Of a stretch of DNA of 62,516 nt, positions 9,274-38,080 are shown one piece after another. Made by a program: the position numbers and the translations under genes. How positions within the stretch are numbered: position 1 is the stretch's first letter; each line of letters begins with the position of its first letter. This DNA comes from Longimicrobium sp. (GTDB lineage Bacteria; Gemmatimonadota; Gemmatimonadetes; Longimicrobiales; Longimicrobiaceae), in NCBI RefSeq assembly GCF_035474595.1, contig NZ_DATIND010000108.1:1-62516 (forward strand), in the 5' to 3' direction. The notes below the pieces were generated by a model. It was not told the DNA's origin and did no database searches. It saw only the letters and a program-made list of their open reading frames with translations.

Positions 9274-10392
9274 TCAGTTCGCGACCAGACCGTACGAGTT
9301 CACCGGCAGGCCGCTGGCGGTGGCCACCTGCGTCAGCGCGCCGGTGCTCCCGATGCGGTAGCCGCGGATGGTGCCGTCGCCGCTGTCCAGCACGTACAGC
9401 GCCTGGCCGTCGCTGGTGATGCTCAGGTCCGTGGGCCCGGCGCCGGTGACGGCGGTCTTCCCGTCCGGGTCCAGCAGCGTCAGCGCGGTGTCGAGCACGC
9501 GGAAGCCGGTGATGCTGTTGCTGCCGGTGTTCGAGGCGTACACGTAGCGCCCGTTCGCCGTCACCACCACCCAGCACGCCGCCGTCTCGGTGGTGGCCAC
9601 CGGCCCGGTGACCACGCCCAGCGTGCGCGCCGCGGGGGCGACCGAGTACTCCGTCAACGAGCTTCCGTCCACCACCGGAACCCCGCCCGGCGCGTTGGCG
9701 TTGGACACGAACAGCGCGCCGGTGATGGGCGAGAACGCGAAGCCGAACGGCGTCACCCCCGTCGAGCTGTTCACCACCGGCGCGGTCAGGTTGCCGTTGG
9801 TGCCCACGCCGTAGACGTCGATGCGGTTGGTGGCCTTCTCCGTCACCACCAGCAGCGTGCCGTCGGGCGAGAACTGCACCTGCGCCGGCTGCGGGTCGGC
9901 CGCGCCGCTCAGCGGCTGCGAGAAGCCCAGCGGCACCAGTCCGCTCGCGGTGAGCTGGAAGCCGGTCACGTTCCCGCCGCCGCCGGCGTTCAGCACGTAC
10001 ACCAGCGCGCCGCGGCTGGCGATGCTCACCGGCCGGGTGCCGCCCGAGGGCGTCTTGCCCACGAACTCCAGGGTGTCCTGGTGGATCTGGAACACCGACA
10101 CGTCGTTGCTCGCGGCGTTCGCGGCCATCAGCCACGTCCCGTCGCCCGACACCGCCAGCGCCCCCTGCGATCCCAGGCTGGCGCCCGTTCCCGCGCCGCG
10201 CGTGGAGAACGCCCGCCCCGTGCCGACCGAGTTGCTCACGTTGCGGATGTACATCACGACTTCGTTGTTCGGCTGGTTCGTCATGGCGAACACCGCCGCG
10301 GCGGGAAAGTCGACCACGAGCGGGTCGGTCGACAGGTCGCACCCGCCCAGCACGAGCGCCGCGGCGGCCGCGCCAATCCAGCGCATCCTCAT
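9274..10392 (-). CDS. Lactonase-family beta-propeller lipoprotein
   Basis: A 372-residue protein that begins with a lipoprotein signal (AAAALVLGGC, lipobox Cys18). The mature part is built of repeated beta-propeller blades with motifs such as GDGTWLMAANAASNDVSVF, PDGTLLVVTEKATNRIDVY and NGRYVYASNTGSNSITGF. These are typical of the 6-phosphogluconolactonase (Pgl, YbhE-like) seven-bladed fold. Because it is exported and lipid-anchored, a cytoplasmic sugar-phosphate role is unlikely; an extracytoplasmic binding or hydrolase role is more plausible. GAGGGG precedes the ATG at 10392. It has its own terminator, so it is probably monocistronic. Confidence 0.85.
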   Translation of the reverse strand: MRMRWIGAAAAALVLGGCDLSTDPLVVDFPAAAVFAMTNQPNNEVVMYIRNVSNSVGTGRAFSTRGAGTGASLGSQGALAVSGDGTWLMAANAASNDVSVFQIHQDTLEFVGKTPSGGTRPVSIASRGALVYVLNAGGGGNVTGFQLTASGLVPLGFSQPLSGAADPQPAQVQFSPDGTLLVVTEKATNRIDVYGVGTNGNLTAPVVNSSTGVTPFGFAFSPITGALFVSNANAPGGVPVVDGSSLTEYSVAPAARTLGVVTGPVATTETAACWVVVTANGRYVYASNTGSNSITGFRVLDTALTLLDPDGKTAVTGAGPTDLSITSDGQALYVLDSGDGTIRGYRIGSTGALTQVATASGLPVNSYGLVAN

Positions 10393-10712
10393 GTCCCCTC
10401 ACCTCTTCCGGGATCGTACGGCACGCGCCGCCGTCCCCCGGTCGTGGACGGCGGTGCCTGGGAGCGCCCGCACCTCCCGCGGCGTCCGGGCTTTCCTGCT
10501 CCCGCTGGCACAACGCGGGCCGCGCGGCCCGCTTGGCCGAAGATGCAGGTGCTTCCGCGGCAACGGCTTGCCCGGGGAAGCGCCGAAGCGCGCGGAGGCG
10601 GCGCGCGTCGCGATGGACAAACTCGTACCCGGTACCGGCCGGGCACGCGCCGTCCTCACAACGAACGGGCGGGGGAAAAGCTGACGCGGGGGGCGAAGAG
10701 GTGGCGCGGCCG
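10393..10712. other. Intergenic, nothing recognised
   Basis: These 320 bp lie between the lactonase-like gene start and the stop of the LytTR regulator. They are coding-like in composition only because the whole region is GC-rich. I see no gene, repeat or strong promoter. Confidence 0.4.
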
Positions 10713-21897: not shown

Positions 21898-22679
21898 GCG
21901 ACGACCGCCCCCCCACGCCGCCGCCCTCGTCCGAGGGGTCGCGCCCGCGCCGCCCCCGCCCGCCGCGCGCCGACGAGACGCCCGCGGCCGCGCCCGCGCC
22001 GCACAACGGGCGTCCCGAGCGCCGCCGGGTGCCGCGCGGGCTGTCGCTGCTGGCCGTGCTCCCCGCGGACCTGGAGGAGCCGGTGTGGGACCCGGTGGAC
22101 CCGCGGCTGGGCGCGCGGCTGGTGATGCACGACGACGTGGCGGCGCTGGTGGCCCCCGCGCCGCCGGAGGGCGCGGACCACGACCCGCTGCACGTGACCG
22201 CGCGCCACTGGGAGGTGCACCGCGCGCTCCTGGGCGGCGACGTGGTTCCCGCGCCGGCCGGCGTCGTCTTCCCCACCGACGCGGAGGTGATGGCGTTCCT
22301 GGAGGAGAGCTACACCTCGCTGCGCGGCGCGCTGGCGCGGGTGCGCGGGCGGTGGGAGTACCGGCTGCACGTGTCGCTGCTGGACCCGGCGTTCCCCGAG
22401 CCCAAGGCGCTGGACCTGGCCACCCACATCTACGCCGAGCTGCGGCGCCTGTCCCGCGCGGCGGTTCCCTTCCCGCGCGAGCTCCCGCGCATCCTCAGCT
22501 CCGCGTTCCTGGTGGAGCGCGTGGGGAGCGAAGGCTTCCGCGACCGCGTGGACCAGCTCTCCGCGCTGAACTCCGCGCTCGAGCTGGACCTCACCGGCCC
22601 ATGGCCGCCGTACGACTTCGTCTCCATGTCCACCCCGCCGCCGCTGGCCGACGCGGCCGTCCCGGCGCGGACGAAGTAA
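21894..22679 (+). CDS. GvpL/GvpF-like gas vesicle family protein, orphan
   Basis: A 261-residue protein whose GTG start overlaps the M24 peptidase stop. The first about 50 residues are Pro/Arg-rich and look disordered. The remainder follows the GvpL/GvpF family plan: VMHDDVAALVAP, then ARHWEVHRALL, VVPAPAGVVFPTDAEVMAFL, a central WEYRLHVSLLD strand, and the C-terminal hallmark LDLTGPWPPYDFVSM. Classical GvpF/L proteins assist gas vesicle assembly, but no GvpA, GvpN or other Gvp gene is in the window. It could belong to a gas vesicle locus elsewhere or have been recruited to another task linked to the peptidase. The family call is strong; the function is not. Confidence 0.8.
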   Translation: MSDDRPPTPPPSSEGSRPRRPRPPRADETPAAAPAPHNGRPERRRVPRGLSLLAVLPADLEEPVWDPVDPRLGARLVMHDDVAALVAPAPPEGADHDPLHVTARHWEVHRALLGGDVVPAPAGVVFPTDAEVMAFLEESYTSLRGALARVRGRWEYRLHVSLLDPAFPEPKALDLATHIYAELRRLSRAAVPFPRELPRILSSAFLVERVGSEGFRDRVDQLSALNSALELDLTGPWPPYDFVSMSTPPPLADAAVPARTK

Positions 22680-22680
22680 C

Positions 22681-22797
22681 CCAGGGAACAGGTTACAGGG
22701 GACAGGGGACACGGACTGATTCGGGTCCTCAGGACTTGGGACTTGGGACTTGGGACTTAGGACTTTCGCACTCAGCACTCCGCACTCAGCACTTCTC
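22681..22797. repeat. Heptanucleotide repeats upstream of epimerase
   Basis: GGGACAG-type heptads (22681-22712) are followed by GGGACTT, AGGACTT and CACTCAG heptads up to 5 bp before the epimerase ATG. The epimerase therefore has no recognisable ribosome-binding site in its leader. Confidence 0.8.
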
Positions 22798-22801
22798 CCG
22801 G

Positions 22802-23836
22802 ATGAAGCTCACCTTCGAGACGATCGAACTTCCGACGAAGCACGCCTTCAACATCGCGCGCGAGGCGGCGCCGCGGACGCGGCGATCGGTGCTGGTGCGG
22901 ATCGAGGACCGCGACGGGGTGGAGGGGTGGGGCGAGGCCCCGGCCACTCCCTACTACGGCGAGACGGCGGAGACGGTGACGGCCATCATGCCGCACCTCT
23001 CCGCCGTCGCGGCGCGCGCGGCCGGCGGCGACCTGTTCGCGCTGGAGCGGATCGAAACCGCGCTGGAGCGCTCCATCGGCCGCAATCCCGCGGCGCGCGT
23101 GGCCGTCTCCATGGCGCTGCACGACCTGCTGGGGAAGCGCCTCGGCGTCCCCATCTGGAAGCTGTGGGGGCTGGACCCGGCGGAGGCGCCGCGCTCGTCG
23201 TTCACCATCGGCATCGACCAGCCGGAGGTGATGCGGCAGAAGGTGCGCGAGGCCGCCGGCTACGACATCCTGAAGATCAAGGTGGGCACCCCGCGCGACC
23301 GCGAGGTGCTGCAGATGATCCGCGACGAGGCGCCCGAGAAGACCATCCGCGTGGACGCCAACACCGCGTGGACGGCGAAGGAGGCCATCCGCCGCATCCC
23401 CATGCTGGAGGAGTACGGCGTGGAGTTCGTGGAGCAGCCGCTGAAGCCCGACGACCTGGAGGGGCTGCGCCTGGTCCGCCGCCGCTCGCGCCTTCCCATC
23501 ATCGCCGACGAGAGCTGCGAGGTGGCGGCCGACGTGGCGCGGCTGGCGGGCGCGGTCGACGGCGTGAACATCAAGCTGGCCAAGTGCGGCAGCCTGCGCG
23601 AGGCGGTGCGCATCGTCCACGCGGCGCGGGCGCACGGGATGAGCGTGATGATCGGCTGCATGGTCGAGTCCACCGTGGGCATCGCGGCGGCGGTGCAGCT
23701 CGCGCCGCTGGTGGACTACGCCGACCTGGACGGCGCCGCGCTCCTGGCGAACGACCCGTTCAGCGGCCCCGGCCTGGCGGACGACGGGAGCCTGCGCTTC
23801 AACGACGACCCGGGGCTCGGCGTCACGCGCGCGTAG
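22802..23836 (+). CDS. Dipeptide epimerase (L-Ala-D/L-Glu type, enolase superfamily)
   Basis: A 344-residue member of the muconate-lactonizing subgroup of the enolase superfamily. The catalytic set is complete: the KxK lysines Lys158 and Lys160 (ILKIKVG), metal ligands Asp185 (RVDANTAW), Glu211 (EQPL) and Asp236 (ADES), and the second-face lysine in NIKLAKCGS. The N-terminal capping domain has GWGEAPATPYYGET. Members such as YkfB and YcjG epimerise L-Ala-D-Glu from peptidoglycan turnover, and MIGCMVESTVG fits that group. Exact dipeptide preference cannot be read from sequence. The ATG at 22802 is used because the upstream frame runs into tandem repeats. Confidence 0.9.
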   Translation: MKLTFETIELPTKHAFNIAREAAPRTRRSVLVRIEDRDGVEGWGEAPATPYYGETAETVTAIMPHLSAVAARAAGGDLFALERIETALERSIGRNPAARVAVSMALHDLLGKRLGVPIWKLWGLDPAEAPRSSFTIGIDQPEVMRQKVREAAGYDILKIKVGTPRDREVLQMIRDEAPEKTIRVDANTAWTAKEAIRRIPMLEEYGVEFVEQPLKPDDLEGLRLVRRRSRLPIIADESCEVAADVARLAGAVDGVNIKLAKCGSLREAVRIVHAARAHGMSVMIGCMVESTVGIAAAVQLAPLVDYADLDGAALLANDPFSGPGLADDGSLRFNDDPGLGVTRA

Positions 23837-23924: not shown

Positions 23925-24113
23925 TCAGACCTCGCAGGAGATGTCGAAGGAGGGACAGAAGGACTTCGTCGCCGGGCAGCTGTCGGTCTTGGAATACGGG
24001 CATACCGCGTGGTCCTCGTGCGCGTCGACGGTGCCCCGGAGGGTGTGTCCGTCGCCAGTGTCGAACGAGGTGACGGACAGGTTCTCGAGGTCCAGCGAGA
24101 GCTTGCGGATCAT
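23925..24113 (-). CDS. Cys-rich RiPP-like precursor peptide 1
   Basis: A 62-residue peptide. GGAGG sits 4 bases before the ATG at 24113. Residues 1-19 (MIRKLSLDLENLSVTSFDT) are a leader conserved in three neighbouring genes. A GTVDAH block at 27-32 follows, then a Cys/Ser/Thr-rich C-terminus with cysteines at 38, 46, 53 and 60, ending SFDISCEV. The leader resembles class I lanthipeptide (pinensin-like) precursors recalled from Bacteroidota and Gemmatimonadota. No dehydratase, cyclase, transporter or protease gene is nearby, so modification would need enzymes encoded elsewhere. A family of unmodified disulfide peptides is an alternative. Confidence 0.75.
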   Translation of the reverse strand: MIRKLSLDLENLSVTSFDTGDGHTLRGTVDAHEDHAVCPYSKTDSCPATKSFCPSFDISCEV

Positions 24114-24235
24114 GGTGCCTCCTGCGTGAAGGTGTGTCGGCGCGTTCTCGAAGGGACTTCCCGTGCACGCCGCGCACCCAGTATAACGCATCCACCCCGG
24201 GCGTGCACACCTTCTTCACGGCCGGGGCGGCGAGG

Positions 24236-24430
24236 TCATCCTTCCTCGCGGCAGGACACGTCGAACGAAGCGCAGGTGTGGAGCGTGGCCGGGCAGGAGA
24301 ACGGCTCGGACCACCGGCACGGCTGCTTGGCCTCGTGCGCGTTCACCGTTCCCAGCGCCTCCGCGGAGGTGCCGGTGCGGAACGACGTGACGGCGAGCGC
24401 GTCTAGGTCCAGCGTGAGCTTGCGGTTCAT
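24236..24430 (-). CDS. Cys-rich RiPP-like precursor peptide 2
   Basis: A 64-residue paralogue of peptide 1. GGGAGA lies 7 bases before the ATG. The leader is MNRKLTLDLDALAVTSFRT and the middle block is GTVNAH. Cysteines are at 38, 46, 53 and 60, exactly as in peptide 1. The C-terminal TCASFDVSC is shared with peptide 3, while the inter-cysteine residues differ (CRWSEPFSCPATLHTC). This fixed leader with a variable core between fixed cysteines is what a precursor family shows. Confidence 0.78.
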   Translation of the reverse strand: MNRKLTLDLDALAVTSFRTGTSAEALGTVNAHEAKQPCRWSEPFSCPATLHTCASFDVSCREEG

Positions 24431-24474
24431 CTTGATTCTCCCTGTGAAGCGGGATCGATGGACGTGCGGAGCGG

Positions 24475-24666
24475 TCAGGCGTCCGCGCGGCAGGAGATGT
24501 CGAACGACGCGCAGGTGTGGATGGTGTAGCAGCTCTGCGGATACCCGGCGCTGGGGCACGGGATCTTGTCGTGCGCCTGCACCGTCCCGCGCGCTTCCAC
24601 GGCGCCGCCGGTGCCGAACGACGTCACCGAGAGCGCGTCCACGTTCAGCGTGAGCTTGCGGTTCAT
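24475..24666 (-). CDS. Cys-rich RiPP-like precursor peptide 3
   Basis: A 63-residue paralogue. GGAGGG lies 3 bases before the ATG. The leader is MNRKLTLNVDALSVTSFGT and the middle block is GTVQAH. Cysteines are at 37, 46, 52 and 59. It shares TCASFDISC with peptide 2 but has a distinct segment PCPSAGYPQSCYTI. The 44 bp between this gene's stop and the peptide 2 start suggest one transcript for several precursors. Confidence 0.78.
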   Translation of the reverse strand: MNRKLTLNVDALSVTSFGTGGAVEARGTVQAHDKIPCPSAGYPQSCYTIHTCASFDISCRADA

Positions 24667-24813
24667 CTTCCCTCCACGAACTGAGGTGGGCGGTCCGCCC
24701 CTCGCCGCGAGGGGCGGACCGGTGCATTGGGACCTCCGAGGATAACAGCCTGTCTCTCCACGGCGCAATCAGCGCTGCCGAATCTTCATCCCCACTTCAC
24801 CTGCCCGCCAGGC

Positions 24814-24996
24814 TCAGCAGAGGTTGGTGGTGCAGGTGTTCCGGGTGTTGCAGGCGCCGTACGGATCGCACGTGGTGAGCGTCAGCCCGAAGGCGTGGCG
24901 GTTCGCCGTGCCGTGCGGCGAGGCGTCCACGCGCTCCGTGGGGAACGACGCGACTTCGAGGGCGTTGGGATCGAGCGACAGCTTGCGGTCCATCAT
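24814..24996 (-). CDS. Cys-rich RiPP-like precursor peptide 4, divergent core
   Basis: A 60-residue peptide at the upstream end of the array. GGAGG lies 2 bases before tandem ATG codons (24996 or 24993). The leader MMDRKLSLDPNALEVASFPT keeps the RKLSL...L.V.SF.T pattern and a shortened HGTA block. The core is different: TLTTCDPYGACNTRNTCTTN then LC, with cysteines at 43, 49, 55 and 60, six or five residues apart, and ending on Cys. It is rich in Thr, as a lanthionine-forming core would be. It may yield a different product from the other three. Confidence 0.75.
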   Translation of the reverse strand: MMDRKLSLDPNALEVASFPTERVDASPHGTANRHAFGLTLTTCDPYGACNTRNTCTTNLC

Positions 24997-25215
24997 GGCC
25001 TCCAGAACGATGGGTGATTTCCCCGCGCGCGGATGGCGGGAAGAGTTGGCGACAATTCAAGGCACAAAAAGCGAACCTCGTTTGCAAAGCGATGGCATCG
25101 CACCCCCGCGTGTTCCGGATCGGCGGAGATCCATCATCGTTCCACCTCCTCGCCGGCCCTGCCCCGCCTTGCCCGCGATGTTAGCTTTTCGGCCGTTCCC
25201 TATCCCCTGTCCCCT

Positions 25216-27717
25216 ATGCCCTGTCCCCCAGGCTTGTACGTAGACGTCGCGCTCCCGCTGCCGCCACCGCGGACCTTCACCTACCGCGTGCCCGACGCCC
25301 TGCGCGCGCAGGCGCGGCCGGGCGCGCGGGTGCTGGTGCCGTTCGGCAGCCGCGAGCGCATCGGGTGGATCGACCGCGTCTCGGACCCGGCGACGATCGG
25401 CGACCCGGAGAAGGTGAAGCCGATCCTGGGCGTGCTGGACGGGGCACCCAGCGTGACGCCCGCGGTGCTGCGCCTCTGCCGCTGGATCGCGGGCTACTAC
25501 CTGTCGCCGCTGGGGCAGGTGATCCGCACCGCGCTCCCGGCGGGGCTCACCGACTCGTCCACCGACTACCTGCAGCTGACGGGGGACCCGGCGCCGGGGC
25601 GCGACCTGGGGCAGCAGGAGCTGAAGCTGGTGGAATGGCTGCGCGGGAGGGACGGGCCGCAGGCGGTCGCGCGGCTGCGGCGGGAGATGGGCGACCGGGT
25701 GTGGTGGCCCACCATCCGGCGGCTGGAGGAGATCGGGCTGGTGCGGGTGATGACGGAGGGCCCGCGCGTGGAGCCGCCGGTGCGCACCCGCCGCGTGCTG
25801 CGCGTGCGCGAGCTTCCCAGCCTGCTGGAGCGCGACCGCATCTTCGCGCGCGCCGCCCGCCAGCGCGAGGCGTTCGAAACGGTGGAGGCGATGGGCGGCG
25901 CGGCCGACGTGCCGCATCTGGTCAACGAGCTCGGCTTCACCTACACCATCCTGAACGCGCTGGTGAAGAAGGAGGTGGCCGACATCGCCGAGGAGGAGGT
26001 GTCGCGCGACCCGTACGCCGGCGTGGAGGCCGGCGCCGCGCCCCAGCACCGCCCCACGCCCGCGCAGACGTCCGTCATCCGCCGGCTGGTCGAGGCGACC
26101 CGGACGGAGAAGCCGGGGACCTTCCTGCTGCGCGGCGTCACCGGCTCGGGAAAGACGCTGGTCTACATCGAGCTGTTGCGCGAAGTGGTGGAGCGGCAGG
26201 GGAAGACGGCCATCGTCCTGGTCCCCGAGATCGCGCTGACGCCGCAGACGGTGGGGCGCTTCAAGGCCGTGTTCGGCGACCGGGTGGCCGTTCTCCACTC
26301 CGCGCTGTCGGACGGCGAGCGGTACGACGAGTGGCGGTCATTGAGATCGGGAGAGAAGCGGATCGTGGTGGGCGCGCGCTCGGCCATCTTCGCCCCGCTC
26401 CCCGACCTGGGCGCCATCGTGGTGGACGAGGAGCACGAGAGCTCGTACAAGCAGGGCGAGGCGCCGCGCTACCACGCCCGCGAGGTGGCCGTCGTGCGGG
26501 CGACCATCGAGGGCGCCGTGTGCCTGCTCGGCTCGGCCACGCCGTCGCTGGAGAGCTGGGCCAACGCGCAGGCGGGAAAGTACACGCTGCTGGAGCTCCC
26601 CGAGCGCGTGGGAGGCCAGCCGATGCCGCCCATCCGCATCGTGGACCTGCGGGCCGAGCGCAAGCGCCAGCGCGACTCGAGCGGGCCCATGCAGGACCGC
26701 GGGCCGGTCATCCTCTCCGACCTGCTGGTGACCGCCATCGGCCAGCGCATCGCCCGCGGCGAGCAGACCATTTTGCTGCTGAACCGGCGCGGCTACGCCA
26801 ACTTCGTGCAGTGCCGCGAGTGCGGAATGGTGTGGCAGTGCCCCAACTGCAACGTCTCGCTCACCTACCACCGCCGGCGCGCGCGGCTCACCTGCCACTA
26901 CTGCCTGCACGAGGAGCCGTCGCCCGGCCACTGCGCGGCGTGCGGATCGAAGGACCTGAGCTTCAAGGGGGTGGGGACGGAGCAGGTGGAGCGGACCGTG
27001 GCGGAGACCTTTCCCAGCGCGCGGATCGCGCGGATGGACGTGGACACCACCAGCGGCAAGTGGAGCCACCACGAGATCCTGGGACGAGTCGAGCGCCGCG
27101 AGGTCGACATCCTGATGGGAACGCAGATGATCGCGAAGGGGCTGGACTTCCCCAACGTGACGCTGGTCGGGGTGATCAACGCCGACGTGGGGATCAACCT
27201 TCCCGACTTCCGCGCCACCGAGCGCACCTTCCAGCTGATGACGCAGGTGGCCGGGCGCGCGGGGCGGGGACCCAAGGGCGGCGAGGTGTTCATCCAGACC
27301 GCGCTCCCCACCCACTACGCCGTCGCGGCGGCGACCGAGCACGACTTCGTCACCTTCGCCGAGAAGGAGCTGGAGACGCGCCGCGAGCCGCGCTACCCGC
27401 CCTTCACGCGGCTGGTGAACGTGGTGGTGAGCGGGCTGGAGGAAGAGGCGACGCAGGAGGCGGCGACCGCCGCGGGCGAGTGGGTGGCCGGGCTGCTGGA
27501 GTCGCGCCGCGTGCGCGACGTGACGCTCACCGGGCCGGCGCCCAGCCCGATCGACCGCATCCGGGGGCGGTGGCGCTGGCACTTCCTCCTCCGCTCCGAC
27601 CACGCGGACACGCTGGGCAAGGTGTCGCGCTTCTTCTGGGAGCGCTGGCACCCCCGCAGCCCCAAGGCCGCCGACATCCGCGTCATCATCGACCGCGACC
27701 CGGTGCAGCTGCTGTAA
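25216..27717 (+). CDS. priA: Primosomal protein N' (replication restart helicase PriA)
   Basis: An 833-residue 3'-5' helicase that reloads the replisome at stalled forks. The N-terminal DNA-binding domain starts YVDVALPLPPPRTFTYRVP. Walker A is GVTGSGKT (307-314) and Walker B is VVDEEH (403-407). The later helicase motifs LLGSATPS, ILLLNRRGYANF, MGTQMIAKGLDFP and VAGRAGRG are present. Eight zinc-binding cysteines are kept as CRECGMVWQCPNC, CHYC and CAAC. The ATG at 25216 gives the family N-terminus. It lies inside a short CCCTGTC/CCCTATG heptad tract (25199-25231), so no normal ribosome site is visible. Confidence 0.96.
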   Translation: MPCPPGLYVDVALPLPPPRTFTYRVPDALRAQARPGARVLVPFGSRERIGWIDRVSDPATIGDPEKVKPILGVLDGAPSVTPAVLRLCRWIAGYYLSPLGQVIRTALPAGLTDSSTDYLQLTGDPAPGRDLGQQELKLVEWLRGRDGPQAVARLRREMGDRVWWPTIRRLEEIGLVRVMTEGPRVEPPVRTRRVLRVRELPSLLERDRIFARAARQREAFETVEAMGGAADVPHLVNELGFTYTILNALVKKEVADIAEEEVSRDPYAGVEAGAAPQHRPTPAQTSVIRRLVEATRTEKPGTFLLRGVTGSGKTLVYIELLREVVERQGKTAIVLVPEIALTPQTVGRFKAVFGDRVAVLHSALSDGERYDEWRSLRSGEKRIVVGARSAIFAPLPDLGAIVVDEEHESSYKQGEAPRYHAREVAVVRATIEGAVCLLGSATPSLESWANAQAGKYTLLELPERVGGQPMPPIRIVDLRAERKRQRDSSGPMQDRGPVILSDLLVTAIGQRIARGEQTILLLNRRGYANFVQCRECGMVWQCPNCNVSLTYHRRRARLTCHYCLHEEPSPGHCAACGSKDLSFKGVGTEQVERTVAETFPSARIARMDVDTTSGKWSHHEILGRVERREVDILMGTQMIAKGLDFPNVTLVGVINADVGINLPDFRATERTFQLMTQVAGRAGRGPKGGEVFIQTALPTHYAVAAATEHDFVTFAEKELETRREPRYPPFTRLVNVVVSGLEEEATQEAATAAGEWVAGLLESRRVRDVTLTGPAPSPIDRIRGRWRWHFLLRSDHADTLGKVSRFFWERWHPRSPKAADIRVIIDRDPVQLL

Positions 27718-33637: not shown

Positions 33638-34966
33638 TCAGATGTTCGGGTTGTTGTTCCGCTCCACGTTCGGCAGCGGCAGGCACCGCTGCGAGCCGTA
33701 GGTGCCGCCGGCGTGATACGCCGAACCCGGGGCCGGGCTCAGCGGCAGGTTGTAGCGGATGAGGTCGCCCAGGTGGTGGCCGTCGAGGAAGAACTCGCGC
33801 CGCCGCTGGTCGATGATCTCGGCCAGCACCTCGGCCTGCGTGGTGCCGGTGAAGGCCGGCTGCCCGCCCCGCGCGCGCTCGGCGGCGATCACCGCCAGCG
33901 CCGGGGCCAGGTCGTTGGCGCGCGCCGCCGCCTCGGCCACGATCAGCTGCGCCTCCTCGTAGCTGGCCAGCACCATCGGCGAGTCGGCCTGCGTGTACTT
34001 CTTCTGCAGCCACTGCTCCACGCCGGTCACCGTCCGCCCGATCCCGCCGGGGCCCGTGCCGGCCACCGAGTCCACCGGCACCCGCGGGTCGTTCAGCCGG
34101 CGGTACAGCGGCCCCACCGTGACCGAGGTCGACACGCCGCTGCCCACCTGGCGGTTCTCGGCCCACAGCTTGTTCTGCCGCAGCGAGTTGGAGGCCGAGG
34201 CGGTGATCTGGTACTTGAAGCCGGCAGGAACCAGCGCCGCGTCGGCCCGGGCCGCGGCGTAGCTGCCCAGGTCCAGCTCCGCCCGCGCCCGCCCCACCCG
34301 CGCCAGGTTGGCCAGGCTGTTGGCGCTGGCCCCCGCGGCCGCGGCCGCGGCCAGCGCGGTGTTGAAGCGGTCGATGGCCGCGGTGAGGATCTCGGTGGGC
34401 GTCAGCTCGTTGCCGTAGACGGGGTTCCCCGCGTCGTCCAGCTGGCTGATGGTGCCCGAGCAGAAGCCCTCGCCCATCATCACCAGCGCGTAGCCGGCCA
34501 CGGCGGCCGCCTGCGCGATCTTGGCCTGGCGGCCGGGCACCTGCGCGTCGGTCCACGAGGTCAGGTGGCGCAGCAGCTGGTCGGCGCTGGCGCGCGCCTT
34601 CTGCAGCGGGCCGTACACGCCCAGCGCGTCGCAGCTCTGCACCTGGTAGCGGCGGTCGGCCGCGGTCATGCTTCGCTGGTCGTACGGGAAGCGGTCGGCG
34701 GTCTGCGTGCCGTCCTGCAGCTCGTCGCCGATCAGCCCGCTCATCACCGCGTAGGCGCCGGCCGCGCACTCGAAGTCGCCCACCACGCCGTTCAGCAGGA
34801 TCTGCGCGTTGGCGGGGTCGTTCTCGAAGGGCTCGGCCACGATGCGGTTGCTGGTCTCCACGTCGAGCGCGTCCTTGCAGGCGGGGAGCGCCGCCAGCAG
34901 CACGGCCCCCGCGGCGGCAAGCGCCCGCCACGGGGCGCCGCGCGCCGTTCTCCGGGTTGGTTTCAT
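33638..34966 (-). CDS. SusD/RagB-type outer-membrane lipoprotein
   Basis: A 442-residue nutrient-binding lipoprotein of the SusD/RagB group. AAGGGTGAG precedes the ATG at 34966. The signal peptide ends in a lipobox (LLAALPAC, Cys around residue 30). The helical body has tetratricopeptide-like segments (LANLARVGRARAELDLGSYA), and the C-terminus has the RRREFFLDGHHLGDLIRYN block followed by ERNNNPNI, both characteristic of SusD proteins. It is encoded 45 bp downstream of the SusC-like receptor on the same strand, so they form one operon and one complex. No glycosidase or peptidase neighbour reveals the substrate. Confidence 0.9.
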   Translation of the reverse strand: MKPTRRTARGAPWRALAAAGAVLLAALPACKDALDVETSNRIVAEPFENDPANAQILLNGVVGDFECAAGAYAVMSGLIGDELQDGTQTADRFPYDQRSMTAADRRYQVQSCDALGVYGPLQKARASADQLLRHLTSWTDAQVPGRQAKIAQAAAVAGYALVMMGEGFCSGTISQLDDAGNPVYGNELTPTEILTAAIDRFNTALAAAAAAGASANSLANLARVGRARAELDLGSYAAARADAALVPAGFKYQITASASNSLRQNKLWAENRQVGSGVSTSVTVGPLYRRLNDPRVPVDSVAGTGPGGIGRTVTGVEQWLQKKYTQADSPMVLASYEEAQLIVAEAAARANDLAPALAVIAAERARGGQPAFTGTTQAEVLAEIIDQRRREFFLDGHHLGDLIRYNLPLSPAPGSAYHAGGTYGSQRCLPLPNVERNNNPNI

Positions 34967-35011
34967 CGTCTCACCCTTCCGGTTCGTTGTCGTTCGCATG
35001 GGGGGCCGCCG

Positions 35012-38000
35012 CTAGAACGTGAGGTTCAGCGACACGATCCACGAAGTCAGCTGCGGCAGCGTGGTCTGCTCGAACGCGCCGAAGTTGCCGCCGCGGGTGC
35101 CGCCCAGGAACATGGCCTCGGGCTCGAGCCCCGGGTAATTGGTCCAGGTCGCCAGGTTGCGCCCCGCCAGCGACAGGCTGGCGCGCTGCGCGCCGGCGCG
35201 CCGGGCCAGCAGCTCGGGAAGCGCGTAGGTGAGCGACACCTCGCGCAGCTTGGCGAAGCTGGCGTCCTGGATCAGGAAGTCCACCAGGTTGCGGCTGCTC
35301 TGGATCTGCGCGATGCGCACCGGGTCGAAGCGCGCGGGATAGTAGTTCTCCTCGCAGCGTCCGAAGAAGGTGCAGCGCACGCGGGTGTTGCCGTCGACCT
35401 TCTTCATCCCCGTCTTGAAGTCCAGCAGCCCGTACACCCGCCAGTTGCGGAACAGCGTGAGCGTGGAGCTGAACGCCCCCTCCACCTTGGGCAGCGAGCG
35501 CCCCAGGAACACGTTGGGCGCGTCGTCGGCGGTGCCGTAGCGGCCGTCGGCGCCGGTGCACAGCATCGACCCGCCGTCGCCGTTGTCGCACATCACGTTG
35601 GTGGCCTGACCCGCCGCGTTCAGCTCGGCCGAGAGCACGCGCTGCTCGAAGAACGAGCCGATGGCGTACCCCTCGCGGTGCTCCAGGAAGCTCCCAGCCG
35701 TCACCGAGGTGAGCCCCGGAAGGCCCAGCGTGACGATGCGGTTGGAGTTGGTGGCCACCGACAGGTTCAGGTCCAGCCCCACGTTGCGCCGGTCCACCGG
35801 ACGGCCGCGCGCCGAGAGCTCCCATCCCCAGTTCTTCACCTGGCCGGCGTTGAAGAACTGCGTGCCGAAGAAGCCGATGGACGGCGCGATCTCGCGCTCC
35901 AGGATGGCCCCCTCGACCCGCTTGTTGTAGTAGGTCACCTCGATCCCGGCGCGGTCGTCCAGGAAGCCGGCGTCGAAGCCCAGCTCCAGCTCCTTGCCGC
36001 GCTCCGGCCCCAGCGTCGCGTTCCCCAGGAACTGCGGCGTCACCGCCGGCTGGTCGCCGGTGCCGATGGCGGGGGCGAAGGTGCGCTGCGCCGCGAAGGT
36101 GGGCGGCTGCTTCCCGGCCTCGCCGTACGCGGCGCGGAGGAGAAGCGTGTTCAGGAAGGGGAGGTGGAAGAACGGCTCTTCGCTCACCACCCAGCTGGCG
36201 CTGGCCTTCGGGTAATAGACGCGATCGAAGTCGGTGCCGAACGCGCTGTTGTCGTCGGTGCGCAGCCCGAAGGTGAAGAACAGGCGGTCGTTCCACCCCA
36301 GCTGCTCCTGCCCGAAGAAGCCCAGCTCGGCGTTCTCCAGCGAGTACTCGTTGTTCACCCGCGACGAGGTGGTCGCGTCGATCGCGGTGAGCCCCGGCGC
36401 GGGGAACACCTCGCCGTAGGCGTAGACGGTGTCGCCCTTCGTGCGGTAGTACTGCCCGCCGAAGGTGGTCTTGCTGGTGAGCCGCGGAGTCAGGTCGAAC
36501 GACGCGGTCCCCGAGTAGTCGATGGTGCGGTAGCGGATGTCGCCGTTGGTGATCTCCTTGGACCCCAGCGCCTCGGACCCGAACACCGGGTTGGAGATGA
36601 GCGAGTCGATGCGCGGCAGGAACGTGATGTTGTCCTCGCGGGTGAAGTCGGCCCCCACGCTCAGGCGGTGCTGGAACCAGCCGAACGGGCGGTGGTTCAC
36701 CTGCAGCGACCCGATGAAGCGGTTGATCCCCTGCGAGAAGTTGTACAGCGCGTCGTACTCCTCGGGGGTGCCGCTGTGGAAGCCGCGCTGGTGCGCGAGC
36801 GCCCCCACGGTGTTGGAGGGCGAGGCGAGCACGGTGGACCACACGCGCCCGCCGAAGCCCGCCTCGGCCGACAGATGGGTGAGCCCGTTGGTGTACCCCA
36901 TCCCCGCGTCGAAGCTGAGCCTGGGGTTGGGCGCCACCGTCAGGTTCAGGCGCGTGGTGTAGCGGCGCGTGTCGTTGCTGGCCTCGGCCCCCTGGCCGTT
37001 CTCGTACCCGCCCGAGGCGTAGTAGCGGAACTTGTCGGTCCCGCCGCTCACCGCCAGGTCGTACTGCTGCTGGTGGCCGGTGCGGAAGATGGGGGTGCCG
37101 CGCGCGTTCTCGCGCTCCACGATGTCGAAGGGCACGGTGTCGAGGGTGCGCGACGCGGTGGGCGCGGCCGCGGGGATGGGGCCCCAGTTCACCCAGAAGC
37201 GCCCCTCGGGGTTCGACAGGAAGTTGGCGCCCTGGCGCACGTTCACGCTCCACTGCGTGCCGCCGCCCGTCGAGCCCTTCTTGGTGATGATCTGGATCAC
37301 CCCGTTGGAGGCCTCGGTGCCGTACAGCGTGGCCGCCGCGGGCCCGCGCAGCACCTCGATGCTCTGGATGTCCTCGGGGTTGATGTCGTTGATGCGGCTG
37401 ATGGTGCTGGACCCGAACGCCTGGTTGGCGGGGCCGGTGGCCGCGGTGGAGTTGATGCGCACGCCGTCGACGTAGACGAGCGGCTCGTTGCTGAGGCTGA
37501 ACGAGCTGGCGCCGCGGATGCGGATGCGGGCGCCGGTGCCCACCGCGCCGGTGCCGGGCTGGATGACCACGCCGGGGGCGCGGCCGTTCAGCAGGCTCTG
37601 CACGCTGGTGATGGGCGCCTCGCGGGTGACCTGGGCGGCGTCGATGCGGCCCACGGCGTTGCCCAGCGCGCGGCGCTCGGTGGGCACGCCGGTGCCGGTG
37701 ACCACCACCGCGTTCAGGGCGATGGCGCTCTCGTTCAGCTCCAGGCGCACGCCGGTGTCGCCCACGCGGGCGGTGCGGGTGGCGCCCTGGTAGCCCAGCG
37801 TGGTGGCGCGCAGCGTGACCTCGGTGCCGCTCAGGCCGCCGATGCGGAAGCGGCCGGCGGCGTCGGTCACGGCGCGCCGGTCGGTGCCCTGGACGGCCAC
37901 CTGCGCGCCGGCCAGCGGGCGGTTGCTGCCGGCGGCCACCACGGTGCCGCCGACCTCGCCCGTCTGGGCGGCGGCGGGGCGCGCGGCGGCCGGCAGCGCC

Positions 38001-38080
38001 AGCAGCAGCGCAACGGCCGCCGCCAGGCGGCGGAGCGTCCACGCGGCGCCGGGCGGTTCCGAACGCGTGGCAGGTTTCAT
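35012..38080 (-). CDS. SusC/RagA-type TonB-dependent outer-membrane receptor
   Basis: A 1022-residue outer-membrane transporter. AGGAGG lies 8 bases before the ATG at 38080. After the signal peptide comes a carboxypeptidase-regulatory-like domain (GGTVVAAGSNRPLAGAQVAV). The plug has IQSIEVLRGPAAATLYGTEA and GVIQIITKKG, signature segments of SusC receptors. The remaining about 750 residues are the 22-strand barrel with many aromatic-girdled strands, ending TSWIVSLNLTF with a terminal Phe needed for barrel assembly. Import is energised by TonB-ExbBD, none of which is in the window. With the SusD-like lipoprotein it imports an oligomeric nutrient of unknown type. Confidence 0.93.
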   Translation of the reverse strand: MKPATRSEPPGAAWTLRRLAAAVALLLALPAAARPAAAQTGEVGGTVVAAGSNRPLAGAQVAVQGTDRRAVTDAAGRFRIGGLSGTEVTLRATTLGYQGATRTARVGDTGVRLELNESAIALNAVVVTGTGVPTERRALGNAVGRIDAAQVTREAPITSVQSLLNGRAPGVVIQPGTGAVGTGARIRIRGASSFSLSNEPLVYVDGVRINSTAATGPANQAFGSSTISRINDINPEDIQSIEVLRGPAAATLYGTEASNGVIQIITKKGSTGGGTQWSVNVRQGANFLSNPEGRFWVNWGPIPAAAPTASRTLDTVPFDIVERENARGTPIFRTGHQQQYDLAVSGGTDKFRYYASGGYENGQGAEASNDTRRYTTRLNLTVAPNPRLSFDAGMGYTNGLTHLSAEAGFGGRVWSTVLASPSNTVGALAHQRGFHSGTPEEYDALYNFSQGINRFIGSLQVNHRPFGWFQHRLSVGADFTREDNITFLPRIDSLISNPVFGSEALGSKEITNGDIRYRTIDYSGTASFDLTPRLTSKTTFGGQYYRTKGDTVYAYGEVFPAPGLTAIDATTSSRVNNEYSLENAELGFFGQEQLGWNDRLFFTFGLRTDDNSAFGTDFDRVYYPKASASWVVSEEPFFHLPFLNTLLLRAAYGEAGKQPPTFAAQRTFAPAIGTGDQPAVTPQFLGNATLGPERGKELELGFDAGFLDDRAGIEVTYYNKRVEGAILEREIAPSIGFFGTQFFNAGQVKNWGWELSARGRPVDRRNVGLDLNLSVATNSNRIVTLGLPGLTSVTAGSFLEHREGYAIGSFFEQRVLSAELNAAGQATNVMCDNGDGGSMLCTGADGRYGTADDAPNVFLGRSLPKVEGAFSSTLTLFRNWRVYGLLDFKTGMKKVDGNTRVRCTFFGRCEENYYPARFDPVRIAQIQSSRNLVDFLIQDASFAKLREVSLTYALPELLARRAGAQRASLSLAGRNLATWTNYPGLEPEAMFLGGTRGGNFGAFEQTTLPQLTSWIVSLNLTF

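Follow-up and report, generated by a model that had tools for sequence, protein, structure and literature searches.

Pinensins are antifungal class I lanthipeptides of Chitinophaga (Bacteroidetes), and their leaders form the family NF038180 (leader_pinensin). In class I, LanB is a glutamyl-tRNA-dependent dehydratase and LanC is the cyclase. The LanB of pinensin is split, with glutamylation and elimination carried out by separate proteins (PMC7268733). The prochlorosins and synechococsins of class II (ProcM/SyncM) combine a conserved leader with a hypervariable core and are modified by a single promiscuous enzyme; their precursors are scattered singly and in tandem, up to 83 per genome and 16 in tandem, and they illustrate that enzymes in cis are typical of lanthipeptides, not strictly required (PMC10783134). 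Further, a review of enzyme promiscuity treats the LanM proteins of cyanobacteria as the enzymes that act on numerous precursors encoded in the same genome (PMC12328550). Longimicrobium terrae has been reported only with antiSMASH lanthipeptide clusters (PMC7291104). In the literature that we searched, which leaves out most subscription journals, we found neither a link between Gemmatimonadota and pinensin-type precursors nor an account of any class I system that matches the present one in kind or in size. Prior knowledge comprises pinensin-type leaders and scattered class II precursors; what the present analysis adds, as far as that literature shows, is a genome-wide class I repertoire with few enzymes.

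We analyzed a contig of 62,516 nucleotides (the window) from a Longimicrobium sp. genome (G000, 6.57 Mb), in which four short minus-strand genes lie between a gene of the mandelate racemase/enolase family and priA (Table 1). All four reading frames listed in the preliminary description are present, each behind a GGAGG-type ribosome-binding site, and they lie at the positions given there, apart from the start of the first gene. Translation of this gene probably begins at the second ATG (24993, giving 59 codons), because the first ATG is just 2 bases away from the ribosome-binding site and the ortholog of the sister species G008 begins with one Met only. The leaders follow the pattern KLxLxxxxLxVxSFxT...GTVxxH. 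Three precursors contain four Cys each, at residues 37/46/52/59, 38/46/53/60 and 38/46/53/60, as had been noted, and the first gene is indeed the odd one out, with the core TCDPYGACNTRNTCTTNLC. The motif SFD(I/V)SC, previously described as terminal, occurs near the C-terminus and is followed by two to four further residues (SFDISCRADA at the end of precursor 2, SFDISCEV at the end of precursor 4).

Table 1. Precursor genes, their ribosome-binding sites (RBS) and flanking genes in the window.
Feature	Position	Strand	Length	Details
Precursor 1	24814..24993	(-)	59 aa with the second ATG as start; 60 aa with 24996	leader MDRKLSLDPNALEVASFPT; GTANRH block; Thr-rich core TTCDPYGACNTRNTCTTNLC
RBS of precursor 1	24999..25003	(-)		GGAGG, read from the sequence
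Precursor 2	24475..24666	(-)	63 aa	leader MNRKLTLNVDALSVTSFGT; GTVQAH block; four-Cys core
RBS of precursor 2	24671..24675	(-)		GGAGG, read from the sequence
Precursor 3	24236..24430	(-)	64 aa	leader MNRKLTLDLDALAVTSFRT; GTVNAH block; four-Cys core
RBS of precursor 3	24438..24442	(-)		GGGAG, read from the sequence
Precursor 4	23925..24113	(-)	62 aa	leader MIRKLSLDLENLSVTSFDT; GTVDAH block; four-Cys core
RBS of precursor 4	24118..24122	(-)		GGAGG, read from the sequence
Mandelate racemase/enolase-family enzyme	22085..23836	(+)		PF02746, PF13378; true start inside the ORF
Primosomal helicase PriA	25033..27717	(+)		PF17764, PF18319, PF18074; true start inside the ORF

Domain searches of the 62.5-kb contig detected no LanB, no LanB C-terminal domain and no LanC, in agreement with the absence of LanB and LanC noted earlier. 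The ten neighboring proteins that were typed are ordinary; besides the two flanking gene products they include a SusC/SusD pair. This pair, at 33638-38080, consists of a SusD-like lipoprotein and a SusC/RagA-type TonB-dependent receptor, and an apparent further SusC/SusD-like pair was seen elsewhere in G000 (C23:1-6500, next to the enzyme locus described below).

We used a leader model built only from LanB-adjacent precursors of other genomes, without any sequence from G000; candidates for it were first located with a leader profile of 76 paralogs. Among 907 six-frame ORFs (at least 25 residues) of the window, the model picked exactly the four precursors, with E values from 4e-12 to 2e-4 (1.7e-11, 4.3e-12 and 1.2e-10 for precursors 2, 3 and 4, respectively); the score of precursor 1 was weak (17 bits), and the next-best ORF had an E value of 0.33. 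The same model matched 163 ORFs in the stretches of G000 that were read. NF038180, the curated cut-off of which is 24 bits, matched 51 of the 76 family leaders at E up to 0.1, and one of ten full-length paralogs exceeded the cut-off (27.2 bits). Unlike the pinensin family, the window's own four peptides fall below NF038180 and gave no match to it, nor did a search of the four in Pfam and NCBIfam return any family. A search of solved structures for the leader found none. Judged by its sequence, the leader is probably one of the pinensin-type leaders of class I lanthipeptides, and the original guess to this effect proved right at the level of the family through the matches of NF038180 to the family leaders.

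The scale of the family was invisible from the window. We read 1.99 Mb (~30%) of G000, in stretches chosen partly for matches and partly not, where at least 165 ORFs on 51 contigs bear the leader (E up to 0.01); reversed-sequence decoys gave 0 matches. A single window peptide retrieved 126 matches from G000 at E up to 1, and the 76-paralog profile gave at least 150 in each of the genomes G000, G001 and G008. Stretches taken largely irrespective of matches held roughly 10-15 leader genes per Mb, and thus a whole-genome total of ~200 is a fair estimate by extrapolation. The count is about twice the highest number that we found reported for one genome: against the 83 per genome and 16 in tandem of the prochlorosins stand at least 165 precursors in G000 and 24 leader genes on one 11.7-kb contig of G008. 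The G000 genes occur as singletons and in tandem arrays, mostly without a nearby enzyme. When 614 ORFs from 41 stretches were clustered all against all, no enzyme common to the neighborhoods of scattered precursors emerged; only the precursors themselves clustered widely across loci, and the remaining clusters were ordinary gene families. A search of 72 array starts for a common upstream regulatory motif yielded no convincing candidate (the word CCGGAATC was weak, at 7/72 versus 3/447), and these starts showed a modest A+T enrichment ~80-110 bases upstream.

We found LanB and LanC elsewhere in G000. LanB (PF04738) was detected twice above the cut-off, on contigs C4 and C23, the two copies being 87% identical over their overlap. 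Both genes are cut by contig ends and the assembly holds no full-length LanB; relatives possess long open copies. The elimination domain PF14028 was found once (C23:15265-16203, 143.8 bits). The order on C23 is LanB, PF14028, LanC, six precursors with the same leader, an ABC exporter without a C39 peptidase domain, and HlyD. These six are the only ones of the at least 165 G000 precursors that adjoin a detected LanB, whereas the window array has no enzymes beside it. As in the pinensins, a leader of the type KLxLxxLxVxSFxT goes together with LanC and a split LanB, PF04738 and PF14028 lying on separate ORFs on C23 and in relatives. LanC of C23 (PF05147, 196 bits) matches NisC and LicM2, and its zinc-ligand motifs WCHG and CHG align to LicM2. 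Among solved structures, the split thiopeptide dehydratase 6ec7 (TbtB of thiomuracin) comes closest to the LanB glutamylation protein (E 1.1e-15). Thiopeptide pathways are not known to contain LanC; here, by contrast, LanC is a close neighbor of LanB. Relatives and other phyla show a similar gene order, and at five of these loci it is extended by a protein from a family in which the member tested is a subtilase; the C23 locus yielded neither such a protein nor any other recognizable protease gene. Separately, a second, full-length LanB of the non-split type with its own LanC was observed in two related genomes (G009:C9:154400-156307 and G007:C322:10802-12712; L067, L068).

Across 41 related genomes, the leader was present in 10, and LanB and PF14028 were above their cut-offs in the same 10 and in no others (exact chance 9e-10 if the genomes are independent). 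Shared ancestry enters this comparison only through a genus that has both positive members and members negative for leader and LanB. Further, at 8 of the 11 named loci, from Gemmatimonadota, Acidobacteriota/Thermoanaerobaculia and Ignavibacteriales, the same leader was no more than 10 kb away from LanB, and the leader near lanthionine enzymes (LanB, its C-terminal domain and LanC) that the preliminary description had named as support was found in G000 and in these groups. Among the matches listed, only 9 of 298 Gemmatimonadota genomes carried the leader, 7 of them in the window's family, and the two outside it had one or two copies. As far as sampled, the expansion of leader genes thus appears to be specific to the window's family. 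Some LanB-adjacent precursors have repeat-built cores, for example CSNCSDCSNCSDC (G008:C98, L186 9833-10300; G006:C30, L192 15170), and (GSTC)n cores occur in the Acidobacteriota/Thermoanaerobaculia loci L176 and L179; cores of this kind may represent a simpler version of these products.

The leaders share a mean pairwise identity of 49% (20% when shuffled) and are almost free of Cys, whereas the cores share 29%, near the 26% of shuffled cores. Cys makes up 14.9% and Ser plus Thr 19% of the cores, against 0.8% and 10% of larger proteins. Relative to Cys, Ser and Thr are concentrated at -1 and -5: we counted 452 instances of [ST]C, against 203 +/- 12 after shuffling of the cores, and 111 of [ST]Cxx[ST]C, against 5 +/- 2.5. 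Runs of the latter kind in Cys-rich cores, like the Gemmatimonadota hosts, set this family apart from the pinensins of Bacteroidetes. In G000:C119, two cores (L051 9821 and 13160) consist of three tandem copies of ~20 residues (GGATKCGGIQTCGEGCQPTA), which suggests growth of the core by internal duplication.

The preliminary description had left two options, precursors served by enzymes encoded elsewhere and an unmodified disulfide peptide family. The second would make the genes encode secreted, defensin-like peptides whose only common ground with lanthipeptide precursors would be an N-terminal targeting segment. In its favor, most copies have no adjoining enzyme, and even numbers of Cys are common, four and six being the commonest per core. 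However, odd numbers are frequent too, and there is an enrichment of Ser/Thr directly before Cys, neither of which disulfides need; the leader matches a lanthipeptide leader family, shows by eye no signal-peptide character, and is absent from the related genomes wherever LanB is absent. We therefore regard unmodified disulfide peptides as improbable.

It is still less probable that the precursors are modified in trans by another RiPP enzyme of G000, such as the suspected LanM-like or LanKC-like proteins of C136 and C25. Further LANC_like proteins do exist in this genome, on C25, C136 and C87. However, LANC_like proteins also occur in leader-free genomes (G003, G004, G005 and others), and therefore it is the pair of LanB and PF14028, the presence of which matches that of the leader exactly, and not LANC_like, that tracks the leader; moreover, several phyla have the leader close to LanB. 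The LANC_like proteins of C136 (L030 297-3545) and C25 (L029 ~9300-10400) lie in long open frames and are probably LanM- and LanKC-type synthetases, and further lanthipeptide classes thus seem to be present in G000.

The sister species G008 has an array of three genes at the same place and between the same flanks. Precursor 1 and its syntenic ortholog share 88% identity in the core, with dN 0.16 and dS 0.31 in the leader and dN 0.05 and dS 0.47 in the core; the corresponding values for precursor 3 are 0.27 and 0.43, and 0.11 and 0.70. The core dN/dS values of ~0.12 and ~0.16 are rough, the pairs being short, and they indicate purifying selection on the cores of these two genes. The core is better conserved than the leader, and therefore its sequence matters. 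Precursors 2 and 4 have no clear ortholog in the G008 array, which points to turnover within arrays. A decaying remnant, in which leftovers of duplication have lost expression or processing, would fit the lack of enzymes in cis, the difference in copy number between the two species and the few degenerate copies (for example, C121:69639), but it is hardly credible given that a ribosome-binding site precedes 120 of 141 family genes (12% at random ATGs), that none of the leader-profile matches listed contains an internal stop, and that two of the window's four genes have the low core dN/dS just described.

We consider it very probable, then, that the window genes are satellite class I lanthipeptide genes (LanA) with a pinensin-type leader, served in trans by distant enzymes; the option of enzymes encoded elsewhere is strongly supported by the leader near LanB and LanC at other loci and by the co-occurrence of leader and LanB in the 41 genomes. 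The at least 165 precursors of G000 probably share one or two sets of modifying enzymes. We infer the following route. The leader would act as a common tag that docks each precursor on the distant set, consisting of the split LanB, LanC, ABC exporter and HlyD partner of C23, to which C4 adds another copy of LanB. The split LanB, a predicted glutamyl-tRNA-dependent dehydratase with a separate elimination domain, would dehydrate Ser and Thr of the Cys-rich core, and LanC would close the thioether rings. A protease would then remove the leader by a cut behind the GTVxxH block, before export of the product. One or two such sets would in this way process the at least 165 scattered precursors. That a single promiscuous class I machine (split LanB plus LanC) handles ~200 structurally unrelated, scattered precursors seems to us rather likely, with less assurance than the satellite role of the window genes.

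The arrangement resembles that of the prochlorosins, many scattered precursors (at least 165 on 51 contigs) facing one or two enzyme sets. Unlike the prochlorosins, which depend on LanM, a Nif11-type leader and GG cleavage, it involves a class I split LanB with LanC and a pinensin-type leader; unlike the pinensins, it comprises at least 165 precursors per genome, most of them without enzymes in cis. Mining restricted to enzyme-adjacent precursors misses nearly all members of such a family. The principle of one enzyme and very many substrates, described in the literature searched for the class II LanM of cyanobacteria, would gain a class I counterpart with about twice as many substrates, and class I enzymes with such natural tolerance would be useful for peptide libraries. 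Comparison of cores between sister species offers a direct route to asking what such libraries do. If a single class I machine does handle ~200 precursors, no larger natural lanthipeptide library per cell would be known, and the prochlorosins would have a class I counterpart with an independent origin in one family of Gemmatimonadota.
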